In this document: positions 43,212-46,468 of the stretch, in pieces | Layout of the letters: every line of letters begins with the position of its first letter | Position numbering within the stretch: position 1 is the first letter of the stretch | Source of the DNA: Oxalobacteraceae bacterium | GTDB taxonomy: Bacteria; Pseudomonadota; Gammaproteobacteria; Burkholderiales; Burkholderiaceae_D | Length of the DNA stretch: 48,748 nt | Direction of reading: 5' to 3' | Assembly: GCA_027490255.1 (NCBI GenBank) | Contig: JAIXYM010000060.1 | Location: forward strand, 1-48,748 | Program-made: the position numbers and the translations under genes | The notes under the pieces: generated by a model | What the model was told of the DNA's origin: nothing | The model's database searches: none | Seen by the model: only the letters and a program-made list of their open reading frames with translations

Positions 43212-44165
43212 ATGCAGCTGATGTGGGTATCAGGCCCGACGGGCAACGTACGCAAAGTTTCGATAACGGCGAAAAAAATGCTGATTGGCATAAGCATCGT
43301 TGCGACTGCTTTGGTCACGCTCGGCTTTCTGCTGTATCTGATCGGATTCAAAATCGCGATTGAAGTGCATCCCGAACTAGCGCGCAGCCTTGGCGGTATT
43401 AGCACGCAAGCTGAACAGCAACGCATGGAGTCAGTTTATCGCGAGCGTCTTGCGAAGCTGCAAGGCGATCTGGAATCCACAGCGCAGCACGTACGACATC
43501 TCGAAACGCTCAAGAACCAATTCATGGATTTGGCGACCCCCGCATCGGTCAAGGAGCGTCGCAGTACCCCTGAAGATGGCAAAGGAGGCCCTATGCTTCC
43601 CACCATGCGCTCACTGTCCTTGACAGGGCAGCCACTGGATGCCACGTTCGACGCCGTCGTGCATGAATTCGGACAATTTCACAAAACGGTTGGCAGCCTG
43701 CCTGATAACTGGTCGCGCGAGCTCAATCGCTTGAGGACCTTCCCAACGGGTATGCCACTGGCTGGTGGCTTCAGACTCTCTAGCGGCTTTGGCATGCGGA
43801 CTGATCCCTTTACCGGCATGCTTGGCAGACACGATGGCCTGGACTTTACCTCGGCGATTGGCGCCCCGATTCTTGCAACTGCAGACGGCGTTGTCTCCCG
43901 CTCCGGCTGGGAAGACACCTACGGCAATATCGTTGAGATCACGCATGCGGAAGGCTTCATGACCCGCTATGCGCATATCAGCACCCGACACGTAACCGAA
44001 GGTCAGCGCGTCAAACGTGGTGATCGCATCGCTGAAGTTGGCAGCACAGGTCGCTCTACAGGCCCGCATCTGCACTATGAGGTTTTTCACCAAGGGCATG
44101 TTATTAACCCCTTGCAGGTACTGCCGCACCTTGGCGGGGACAAGGTTTTAGTCACCGCTAAATAA
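43212..44165 (+). CDS. M23 family metallopeptidase, membrane-anchored (bactofilin-associated type)
   Basis: A 317-residue peptidoglycan endopeptidase. An N-terminal cytoplasmic tip, one membrane helix (about 22-45, MLIGISIVATALVTLGFLLY), a coiled-coil (about 65-107, ERLAKLQGDLESTAQHVRHL) and a periplasmic LytM/M23 domain (180-310) follow in order. The zinc site is complete: H207 and D211 in GRHDGLDF, and H288 with H286 in PHLHYE. Unlike NlpD in this window it should therefore be an active hydrolase. A GGGGG-type site precedes the ATG. The bactofilin gene follows 122 bases later on the same strand. M23-bactofilin pairs are known to shape the cell wall in several bacteria. Confidence 0.9.
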   Translation: MQLMWVSGPTGNVRKVSITAKKMLIGISIVATALVTLGFLLYLIGFKIAIEVHPELARSLGGISTQAEQQRMESVYRERLAKLQGDLESTAQHVRHLETLKNQFMDLATPASVKERRSTPEDGKGGPMLPTMRSLSLTGQPLDATFDAVVHEFGQFHKTVGSLPDNWSRELNRLRTFPTGMPLAGGFRLSSGFGMRTDPFTGMLGRHDGLDFTSAIGAPILATADGVVSRSGWEDTYGNIVEITHAEGFMTRYAHISTRHVTEGQRVKRGDRIAEVGSTGRSTGPHLHYEVFHQGHVINPLQVLPHLGGDKVLVTAK

Positions 44166-44287
44166 GCGATGTGAAATAGGCGATGTGATTCAGACATTCG
44201 TTTGTTCTCGCGGACGAAGAAACAAAACCAGACGGATATTTATCGCGCTATATTTGTGGCTGAACGACAAGCGCTGTGGAGATTGCG

Positions 44288-44719
44288 ATGTTCCGTAAGA
44301 TGAAACAAAACAAGCTGTTACCGACTCAGGAGAAGTTCGACACCCTGATCGGAGCGACGACCGAAATTTACGGTCGTCTTGTGCTGCTTGACAGTGTGCG
44401 AATCGATGGCAAGGTGATTGGCAACATCGAGACCGCAAAAGACAAAAAAGTCACGGTCGCCATCGGGCGCTCGGGTGAAGTTTCGGGCGACATCACTGCA
44501 CACCGGGTCATGGTGGCCGGGAAAATCGAAGGTAATATCTATGCCACCGAGCGGGCCGAATTCCACAAAGACTCGGAGGTGCGTGGCGATATCACCTATG
44601 GCACCATCGGCGTAGAACACGGCGCTAAACTGCTGGGTCTGGTGATCCAGGCGCAAAACAACGTCAGCAGCACCACGGACGCTCAAGCCGTCATCAAGAT
44701 GGCGCAAGAGAAAAAGTAA
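44288..44719 (+). CDS. Bactofilin (polymerising cytoskeletal protein), copy 1
   Basis: A 143-residue protein of the bactofilin/DUF583 family. A short disordered tail (FRKMKQNKLLPTQEKFDTL) precedes a parallel beta-helix made of about six hydrophobic rungs: TEIYGRLVLLDSVRIDGKVI, GRSGEVSGDITAHRVMVAG and GDITYGTIGVEHGAKLLGLV. Bactofilins form filaments at the inner membrane and recruit peptidoglycan enzymes. I start at ATG 44288, with GGAG 7 bases before it; a GTG at 44276 lies inside the ribosome-site region. It follows the M23 gene and ends at a strong terminator that separates it from two convergent bactofilin genes. Confidence 0.9.
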   Translation: MFRKMKQNKLLPTQEKFDTLIGATTEIYGRLVLLDSVRIDGKVIGNIETAKDKKVTVAIGRSGEVSGDITAHRVMVAGKIEGNIYATERAEFHKDSEVRGDITYGTIGVEHGAKLLGLVIQAQNNVSSTTDAQAVIKMAQEKK

Positions 44720-44732
44720 GCGGAAACAAAAA

Positions 44733-44754
44733 AGGCTGCCGAAGCAGCCTTTTT
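44733..44754. terminator. Bidirectional Rho-independent terminator between bactofilins 1 and 2
   Basis: Stem AGGCTGC / GCAGCCT with a CGAA loop; T's follow on the plus strand and A's (T's on the minus strand) precede it, so it can serve both convergent genes. Confidence 0.9.
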
Positions 44755-44760
44755 GCTGAA

Positions 44761-44791
44761 AAGCCTGAACGTTGACGCGTCAGGCTTTTTT
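44761..44791 (+). terminator. Second hairpin with T-run, overlapping the end of bactofilin 2
   Basis: AAGCCTGA (44761-44768) pairs with TCAGGCTT (44780-44787), loop 11 bases, followed by T's. On the minus strand the 3' arm encodes the Lys-Ala-stop end of bactofilin 2, so the coding sequence doubles as a plus-strand terminator arm. Confidence 0.65.
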
Positions 44792-45256
44792 CTTGAGTTC
44801 GCCCTTGACCACACCACCACGCTGAATGGTAATGCTCTTGAAGCTAACCTTGCCATCCACCACAGCACGGCTACCGATCGTGAGATCGCGGCAATCGAGC
44901 GCACCCGAAAAATTGCCCTTCACATTCATCGTATCGCAAGTCACGTTGCCATCGAGGACGCCAGTCACGCCAATCTGAATGGAGTGCAGCGACAATGTAC
45001 CTCGCACCGTGCCATCGATAGTCAGATAGCCGCTGGAGCGGATCTCACCGATGAATTCAAAGCCCTCGCTGATGATCGAAGGTTTGAGATTGTTACCCGC
45101 AGGCTTGCCTGCACCATTGCCATTGCCATTCATTGATGGCTCAGGATCGGGCATCATGATCTCTGGCTCCGCCACTATTGGTTCAGCCGCTGGCTGACTG
45201 ATCTCGTTAGTCATGACCACCTTGTCTCGCTCGTCGTTTCGTCGCTTATTGAACAC
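44780..45256 (-). CDS. Bactofilin, copy 2
   Basis: A 158-residue bactofilin. A long N-terminal tail rich in Glu, Pro, Asn and Gly (AEPEIMMPDPEPSMNGNGNG) precedes the beta-helix: GFEFIGEIRSSGYLTIDGTV, GVTGVLDGNVTCDTMNVKG and RAVVDGKVSFKSITIQRGG. It ends with Lys-rich KGELKKKA. It is the downstream member of a minus-strand pair (17 bases after copy 3) and is convergent with copy 1. Its distinct tail suggests a distinct partner or location. Confidence 0.88.
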   Translation of the reverse strand: MFNKRRNDERDKVVMTNEISQPAAEPIVAEPEIMMPDPEPSMNGNGNGAGKPAGNNLKPSIISEGFEFIGEIRSSGYLTIDGTVRGTLSLHSIQIGVTGVLDGNVTCDTMNVKGNFSGALDCRDLTIGSRAVVDGKVSFKSITIQRGGVVKGELKKKA

Positions 45257-45273
45257 GTGTCAATGTCCTGATA

Positions 45274-45633
45274 TCAATAGGACCCCGAGGATGAACCACC
45301 CTCGCCCTCGATCTTCTGCAAGGAGCCCTGAAGATCGCCGCCTTTTTCGATTTCGATTTCCGCGTACTGCACTGAACCCAGCGCCTTACCCGTAGAGCGA
45401 ATGAAAAGAGATTTTTTCGCTGTGAGCGTGTCGTGAATTTCACCACGCAAGTCGATAATTTCTGCAGTAACCTTGCCTTTGATAACGCCGGAACTCGCCA
45501 CAATCAGTTCACGCGCTGTTATTTCTCCCTCGATGCTGCCGGAGATAGAGGCAATATCAGGTACAACAAATGTGCCGTTGAGTACGACACCTTCGCCTAC
45601 CGTTAGACATCCGCTTTGGTTTGAGTCCGCCAA
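45274..45633 (-). CDS. Bactofilin-like protein, copy 3
   Basis: A short bactofilin of about 119 residues, nearly all beta-helix: CLTVGEGVVLNGTFVVPDIA, GSIEGEITARELIVASSGVI, KGKVTAEIIDLRGEIHDTL and GSVQYAEIEIEKGGDLQGSL, with a Gly/Ser tail. There is no ATG. I start at TTG 45633, with GGAGG 5 bases before it; TTG 45645 and GTG 45636 lie on top of that site. It lies 17 bases upstream of copy 2, so the two are probably co-expressed and may form mixed filaments. Confidence 0.8.
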   Translation of the reverse strand: MADSNQSGCLTVGEGVVLNGTFVVPDIASISGSIEGEITARELIVASSGVIKGKVTAEIIDLRGEIHDTLTAKKSLFIRSTGKALGSVQYAEIEIEKGGDLQGSLQKIEGEGGSSSGSY

Positions 45634-45940
45634 CACTGCCTCCAAGAATTCAGGTCGAGAATATAGTCAACTTGCTGCATCCGTATGGCCAAATCGCACT
45701 ACCGATCGACTTGGTGCGGTCAGCGTTCCTACGCCTCCATTTATATCCGCAAAGAAATTATACGGCGAAATATTCAAAAATCCCAAAAGAATTACCTGAA
45801 AACAAAGATTTTCTGAAGAAATTTTCTTAATGCTAATTTTTTACCGTTATCCAAGGCAAGATCGGGACATTTCACCAACAAACTTTCAAAAACCAGCTCA
45901 GTTATAAGATTTTTTTATGAAAGTTATGAGAAATAAGAAT
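45634..45940. other. AT-rich spacer upstream of bactofilins 2 and 3
   Basis: About 300 bases with no gene I can support. It should contain the promoter for the two minus-strand bactofilin genes; several A/T-rich hexamers occur but none stands out. Confidence 0.5.
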
Positions 45941-45969
45941 TTGATTTATATTTTGCACAGCAGCATAAT
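45941..45969 (+). promoter_or_regulatory. Sigma-70 promoter of a candidate small RNA
   Basis: -35 TTGATT (45941-45946), spacer exactly 17 bases, -10 CATAAT (45964-45969). There is no plus-strand gene downstream before a strong terminator, so it points to a short untranslated transcript. Confidence 0.6.
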
Positions 45970-45975
45970 TCATTT

Positions 45976-46036
45976 GTCTCCTCTATGTCTTCTCCTCAGA
46001 TATAGATTAAGCCCGCTCACTGAGCGGGCTTTTTTT
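45976..46036 (+). ncRNA. Candidate small RNA with two anti-Shine-Dalgarno motifs
   Basis: A transcript of about 60 nt is predicted from a good promoter (45941-45969) to a strong terminator (46010-46036). Between them lies a C/U-rich, apparently single-stranded stretch with CTCCTC twice (45978-45983 and 45992-45997), the exact complement of GAGGAG ribosome sites. No reading frame is visible. Small RNAs of this layout in other proteobacteria pair with ribosome-binding sites. It lies between the minus-strand merR and bactofilin genes. Expression is unproven. Confidence 0.5.
46010..46036 (+). terminator. Rho-independent terminator of the candidate small RNA
   Basis: GCCCGCTCA / TGAGCGGGC (9 possible base pairs, realistically 7 with a 5-base loop) followed by seven T's on the plus strand. 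On the minus strand the stem is followed by TTAATC, a poor T-run, so it mainly acts on plus-strand transcription. Confidence 0.85.
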
Positions 46037-46087
46037 CGCCTGTAGATTTCATGACCCAAGGATGCCGGCAAGGTGGCGCGGCTTTTT

Positions 46088-46468
46088 TCAGACGGCAAGC
46101 ACGGCCAGAATACGTTCCAGCTCTTGGCGGACACGGCTAAGGTCTCCGACCGCCGGCTCTTGGGATTGCTGCTGATTGAGCTCCGTCAGCGCGCGTGCAT
46201 CAAGCTTGTTGCGAGCGCCACTGATGGTAAAACCCTGTTCATACAAAAGCTCGCGAATACGGCGAATGAGCAAGACCTCGTGATGCTGGTAGTAACGTCG
46301 GTTGCCGCGCCGCTTGACGGGCTTAAGCTGAGTGAACTCCTGCTCCCAATAGCGCAGCACATGGGGCTTTACGCCACATAGCTCACTCACCTCACCAATG
46401 GTGAAGTATCGTTTGGCGGGAATCGGGGGCAAGGTAACCAGCCCCGGCTTGGCTGCGCGCTCGTTCAT
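46088..46468 (-). CDS. MerR-family transcriptional regulator next to ihfA
   Basis: A 126-residue regulator with the MerR winged helix at residues about 20-90: RYFTIGEVSELCGVKPHVLR, YWEQEFTQLKPVKRRGNRRY and LLIRRIRELLYEQGFTISGA. A short C-terminal helix follows (LSRVRQELERILAVL) for dimerisation. No metal-binding cysteine cluster is present. The protein is almost always found right after ihfA in beta- and gammaproteobacteria, in the pheT-ihfA-merR order seen here; its targets are generally unknown. It starts 12 bases after the ihfA stop. Confidence 0.9.
   Translation of the reverse strand: MNERAAKPGLVTLPPIPAKRYFTIGEVSELCGVKPHVLRYWEQEFTQLKPVKRRGNRRYYQHHEVLLIRRIRELLYEQGFTISGARNKLDARALTELNQQQSQEPAVGDLSRVRQELERILAVLAV

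Follow-up and report, generated by a model that had tools for sequence, protein, structure and literature searches.

RNAs of the family RF02278 are reported to inhibit the growth of Escherichia coli when expressed from a cloning vector (PMC4603805, PMC5688073), and the family is named for that toxicity (PMC4603805). The double-hairpin RNAs of Burkholderia are transcribed, and overexpression of one, ncS27, attenuates growth (PMC5688073); Sass et al. 2017 describe what regulates the accumulation of such RNAs in Burkholderia as unknown (PMC5688073). In Bordetella, the 5' Site 1 of S17 mediates repression of BP2158, which matching mutations restore (PMC11722255). Neisseria NmsR uses two alpha-SD sites, as GFP reporters have shown (PMC5362039).

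Here we describe a copy found in the window, by which we mean the whole 48,748-nucleotide stretch of Oxalobacteraceae DNA that was analysed. A cmscan of the entire window against Rfam gave two above-threshold matches, a tRNA and RF02278 (Betaproteobacteria toxic small RNA, 'double-hairpin RNA'). The latter, on the plus strand at 45975-46037, scores 65.7 bits against a gathering threshold of 50 (E 4.1e-11) and spans the full model, positions 1-64. The anatomy is that of the family (5' UGUCUCCUC, a hairpin with a CU-rich loop, a terminator hairpin with a U-tract), the host is betaproteobacterial, and 0 of 14 control genomes match at E<=1e-5. Against RF02877 (NmsRb) the window reaches only 28.7 bits, below the gathering threshold of 52, and NmsRb identity was rejected on that score. 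The features of the locus are as follows.

45901..45940 (+), putative upstream control element with direct repeats GTTATAAGA (45901-45909) and GTTATGAGA (45923-45931), 22 bp apart; from a conserved block, shared position and lag self-similarity
45941..45946 (+), -35 hexamer TTGATT; from a promoter scan
45955..45969 (+), conserved spacer end and -10 hexamer CATAAT, GC-N3-GCAGCATAAT; from the scan and same-genus alignment
45976..46037 (+), RF02278 small RNA gene (model match 45975-46037); from the Rfam covariance match and fold
45976..45983 (+), anti-SD site 1, GUCUCCUC, at the predicted 5' end, with 45982-45983 paired in hairpin 1
45982..46006 (+), hairpin 1, with 9 pairs and a 7-base loop; from the fold and covariation counts
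45991..45997 (+), anti-SD site 2, UCUCCUC, the loop of hairpin 1; from the fold
46009..46036 (+), intrinsic terminator hairpin (stem 46009-46031) and U-tract; from scan, fold and covariation

A first-pass annotation had proposed a small RNA with anti-SD sites here, bracketed by a promoter and a strong terminator and devoid of coding potential. The Rfam match, conservation and the published mechanism of relatives all back the proposal; the terminator stem at 46009-46031 is indeed followed by T's, and an ORF scan (minimum 50 aa) found no plus-strand ORF of at least 50 aa overlapping the RNA. A 54-aa minus-strand frame (45970-46134) crosses it. By count, neither promoter-like sites (2 in the surrounding 2 kb, 1.4 expected) nor CTCCTC (14 in the window, 19.8 expected) are rare, and the same 2 kb hold 7 terminator-like sites where 2.5 are expected. 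It is the covariance score, the fold z-score and the conservation in relatives that place the arrangement beyond chance. We conclude that the window RNA is a genuine small regulatory RNA gene, an ordinary member of a catalogued betaproteobacterial family, and that the fresh detail of this copy is its conserved upstream control region.

The RNA folds into two hairpins (-26.1 kcal/mol, z -6.7; 0 of 200 shuffles equally stable). Both CUCCUC copies had been thought to be unpaired. This holds for the second (45992-45997), all of which falls within the loop, whereas the first (45978-45983) is unpaired only in part, as its final two bases pair in hairpin 1 and close it. Site 1, GUCUCCUC, does not vary among the 28 sequences aligned, which were chosen from the genus, other genera and a second copy in the same genome (paralog 2), with the sub-threshold copy L003 left out; L003 carries GUCUCCCC at this position. 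Of 16 same-genus sequences, 14 retain the loop CUCCUC, and L032 and L034 lack it (counted by eye). Across the 28 sequences, standard pairs fill 89.2% of cells (82.4% in shuffles), both sides have changed at 9 of 19 pairs (4.7 in shuffles) and the covariation score is 0.221 (0.111 in shuffles), values that 0 of 500 shuffles reach in each case, although kinship among the sequences can inflate such comparisons. The number of further pair types in the same 28 sequences was not unusual (16 versus 14.6 in shuffles, 147 of 500). Sliding the partners by 1-3 columns lowers pairing to 24-52%. Promoter, motifs and hairpin are thus conserved in relatives; their absence there would have counted against the original proposal.

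The sigma-70-like promoter reads TTGATT-N17-CATAAT at 45941-45969, as first claimed. Among 16 same-genus loci, the -35 place reads TTTG or TTAG in 15 (L020 differs), CATAAT is exact in 11, and the -10 box stands 6 or 7 bases upstream of GUCUCC in all 16 (counts by eye). Hence we placed the predicted transcription start of the window copy at G45976, 7 bases past the last -10 base, which makes the first anti-SD site the extreme 5' end. Counted from the end of the -10 box, conservation in these loci extends about 66 bases upstream and no farther. A sigma-54 promoter was rejected, as no GG-N10-GC is seen by eye at the right place.

Might the RNA instead be a processed fragment of a longer transcript, with the promoter at 45941 not its start? 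S17S and the short ncS27 do arise by processing (PMC11722255, PMC5688073). However, the spacing of 6 or 7 bases between -10 box and GUCUCC in the 16 loci is the geometry of a primary start, and three of the four Burkholderia copies are described as short, with no processing site noted for them (PMC5688073). We regard processing as unlikely.

The reading that we hold to be very likely is that of a trans-acting RF02278 small RNA, started by its own promoter at G45976 and ended by its terminator, whose anti-SD pairing blocks ribosome entry on a set of mRNAs. A housekeeping-sigma promoter, aided by an activator bound just upstream, would start an RNA of about 62 nt, and the intrinsic terminator would end it; the U-tract is a possible Hfq 3' site. 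The 5' end and the UCUCCUC loop would then pair with GAGGAGAC-like Shine-Dalgarno sequences. The genome encodes hfq (96.5 bits, cut-off 61.7); expression of the RNA and its dependence on Hfq are predictions for this organism. By covering ribosome-binding sites, the RNA probably turns down nutrient-breakdown genes.

Which mRNAs might be covered? The genome has 14 occurrences of GAGGAGAC with an ATG 2-10 bases downstream. Two of them are the RNA gene itself, read backwards, one begins a frame of 19 aa, one sequence is present on two contigs, and one occurrence is presumably internal to an RND-type transporter. This leaves nine distinct open frames with a perfect GAGGAGAC before ATG.

paaA (TIGR02156, 537.5 bits, cut-off 280)
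a frame matching indolepyruvate ferredoxin oxidoreductase models (below curated cut-offs, searched as a 400-residue fragment)
an acyl-CoA dehydrogenase-like frame (below curated cut-offs, searched as a 400-residue fragment)
a KCU-star-like protein (below curated cut-offs)
a phytanoyl-CoA dioxygenase family protein
a short-chain dehydrogenase
a 7TM-DISM protein
an H+-pyrophosphatase
a putative cyclase

Genes for catabolism and uptake are the likely targets. The 10-base 5' site forms duplexes of -15.0 to -17.3 kcal/mol with the target sites, energies that any such complement would give. A reversed-pattern control in the same genome gave 4 occurrences against the 14. Since a reversed pattern ignores the Shine-Dalgarno signal, we used GAGGAGNN instead, with other dinucleotides after GAGGAG, and the excess became weak: among 100 of the 110 occurrences counted before ATG, AC was found 14 times, AT 11, TT 10 and AA 10, the count for AC including the 2 matches in the RNA gene itself and the one sequence on two contigs. 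The paaA site, AGGAGAC, is retained by just 4 of 15 same-genus rows and by 1 row of another family. Target prediction against GGAG sites, a check that the first-pass annotation had named, thus yielded nine frames with perfect sites, but with weak enrichment and a sparsely kept paaA site. Given the small excess and the low conservation at paaA, we treat the targets as leads.

Weak enrichment in its own genome would also fit an RNA that mainly titrates something else, be it a protein or ribosomes generally, rather than acting on chosen mRNAs. Anti-SD sequences are generic, and the toxicity in E. coli that gave the family its name points the same way (PMC4603805). Against this, restoration of repression by matching mutations in Bordetella (PMC11722255) and the effects of alpha-SD mutagenesis in Neisseria (PMC5362039) argue for pairing with particular messages. 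We give titration little credence and retain the reading of a trans-acting RNA that blocks ribosome entry.

Three bactofilin genes (PF04519) lie within 44276-45645, two of them on the minus strand and the last divergent from the RNA; ahead of them, the frame at 43212-44165 is one that we take to encode an M23-type peptidase. On the other side lies merR, on the minus strand, with its frame ending at 46088. Upstream on the plus strand, the nearest plausible gene is the bactofilin gene ending at 44719, about 1.26 kb before the predicted start, and a terminator-like hairpin stands behind it (by eye); the terminator at 46009 is therefore otherwise unexplained, as had been suspected. The notion that this hairpin is a mere transcription terminator of a neighbouring gene, with the rest incidental, is hardly credible and was rejected: the terminator is strong and merR ends close by, but the T-run lies 3' of the hairpin on the plus strand, the wrong strand to serve merR, the plus-strand gene upstream is distant, conservation is higher in the 5' anti-SD site and hairpin 1 than in the flanks, and the entire RNA falls within the family match.

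The RNA had also been called an orphan. This description has to be dropped, for besides its family membership it has a second above-cut-off copy in its own genome and relatives in half of the genera sampled. The genome (3.09 Mb, 166 contigs) holds six matches at E<=1, two of them above the cut-off. At that loose level 11 of 14 control genomes also match, none above the cut-off, which casts doubt on the four weaker rows. Paralog 2 (G000:C151:5288-5357, or L002:1501-1570; 50.3 bits) keeps site 1 as CGUCUCCUCC and has a loop without CUCCUC. It lies between a universal stress protein (Usp) gene and a 3-hydroxyacyl-CoA dehydrogenase frame that the locus end truncates; PaaH-type models give this frame high scores, though below their cut-offs. 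The third match, L003 (L003:1302-1565), is sub-threshold at 28.8 bits and immediately follows an ORF of 65 aa that has no Pfam match. Because of this position, and because similar copies occur in three other same-genus genomes (L037, L049 and L052; by eye), it is possibly an RNA from a 3' untranslated region.

In a survey with stricter filters, matches at E<=1e-5 were found in 37 of 56 genomes (34 above the cut-off) and in 18 of 36 sampled genera, own included in each case, and at least one copy in 19 of 20 other same-genus genomes. Among the 15 best same-genus loci with neighbours matching the window, the RNA lies between merR and the counterpart of the bactofilin gene at 45274-45645 in 14, and ihfA comes next in 13 of these (L028 ends earlier). 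At L020, the RNA follows the counterpart of the bactofilin gene at 44276-44719, with no merR match within 1.5 kb beyond it. Five of the 20 other same-genus genomes, drafts 75-96% complete, yielded no copy at the window's place: in G007, G010, G014 and G016 the only copies found are without the window neighbours, and G017 has none.

An RNA-pattern scan of named genomes returned 39 stretches (Oxalobacteraceae, Herminiimonas, Oxalicibacterium, Glaciimonas, Burkholderiales and others), 3 of which are chance matches without hairpins. Two copies stand 206-221 bp apart in 10 of the 39 (L057, L059, L060, L062, L072, L076, L082, L089, L090 and L094). These tandem pairs come from Herminiimonas, Oxalicibacterium and two less precisely named records, and every copy is preceded by a promoter and an upstream element of its own. 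The stretches that match merR or bactofilin hold one copy each and are mostly MAG records; records with the same RNA and neighbours carry titles such as Oxalobacteraceae, Burkholderiaceae or Burkholderiales bacterium. This puts an RNA family that is catalogued but little studied at a fixed site in an Oxalobacteraceae-like genus, represented mostly by metagenome-assembled genomes.

The 45 RNA copies in named genomes have promoters of two types: A (18 copies), which resemble the window, and B (27 copies), mostly with a TATACT -10 box and with TTGG at -35. Type B and tandem stretches gave no merR or bactofilin match at E 1e-8, some of them lying near a stretch edge. Upstream of -35, the block containing the element is partly conserved across the 16 same-genus loci, and weight matrices for types A, B and paralog 2 (the last from 16 same-genus loci) match best at shift 0 of 23 in all three comparisons. 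Hence the copies have an upstream element in common, and its distance from the -10 box is fixed. A lag of 22 is the best of 30 for type A (0.53) and type B (0.50), and the second best for paralog 2 (0.48; lag 25, 0.50) and for the window alone (0.69; lag 29, 0.77). Column-permuted controls reached the lag-22 value 0, 0, 6 and 4 times in 500, respectively, on a segment chosen after the repeat had been seen. Both kinds of test set aside the third-type copies L003, L037, L049 and L052, which by eye are without the element, L047 and L055, similar to paralog 2 by eye, and the other-genus loci of the genome survey. Used as a pattern, the paralog 2 element has one match in the genome at up to 3 mismatches, the paralog itself (reversed control, 0); the window's own element has diverged too far for this pattern to find it.

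We conclude that 45901-45940 is probably an activator site, and its sharing suggests one activator common to the window copy, paralog 2 and the Herminiimonas-type copies. More tentatively, and with real doubt, we propose that a small regulon unites the main double-hairpin RNA copies of these Oxalobacteraceae: one candidate activator, possibly a response regulator of the winged-helix type that reads direct repeats phased by 11 bp, would bind the shared element at about -75 to -36 and set a joint dose of anti-SD RNAs that brakes amino-acid, aromatic and fatty-acid breakdown when growth slows. The 11/22-bp phasing is the sole reason for naming a response regulator. Literature searches on the RNA, none by element sequence, found no report of an element common to the three groups of copies. 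The element with its 22-bp repeats is a concrete, testable lead on the control of the RF02278 family.

PhaR offers another lead, and only that. Its published site is a palindrome, YTKNTGCRNYGCANMAR, near the promoter (PMC12849132). The spacer GC-N3-GCA resembles part of this palindrome and a phaR gene is present in the genome, but the consensus fit in the window's genus is poor, TGC-ACA-GCA of the window having 3 mismatches (by eye). At the other-genus copies L016, L021 and L022, TTGCATTGCA-like palindromes lie upstream, with the promoter about 50 bp farther up. These resemble published PhaR sites (by eye), and a link between the RNA and carbon storage could exist there.

How does the window RNA compare with its described relatives? 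Herbaspirillum, like the bacterium studied here, belongs to the Oxalobacteraceae. Four H. seropedicae RNAs, Hsnc059, Hsnc063, Hsnc086 and Hsnc107, are reported RF02278 members, but at 93-115 nt they are longer, with the family match in their 3' part (PMC7011215). B. cenocepacia ncS03, ncS05, ncS27 and ncS62 belong to the same family (bdhR1 in PMC11722255) and share its traits: most are about 60 nt, with two hairpins, CU-rich unpaired stretches and several dispersed copies, and a common upstream motif is reported for three of the four (PMC5688073). They occupy other genomic places, whereas the window copy has a bactofilin gene on one side and merR on the other. The Neisseria RNAs NmsRA and NmsRB have similar anatomy, two anti-SD sites and sibling copies (PMC5362039); the window RNA would work alike without being a member of RF02877, and the NmsRs have an extra stem-loop before the first anti-SD site. 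In Bordetella pertussis S17/S17S, too, a 5' Site 1 and a loop Site 2 complement ribosome-binding sites and paa genes are affected, but RNase E releases S17S from a precursor of 190 nt, whereas the window RNA has a predicted primary start (PMC11722255). The candidate targets agree in kind with those in two of these genera: paa genes and transporters rise in Bordetella without S17 (PMC11722255), and the predictions for Burkholderia are of the same kind (PMC5688073).
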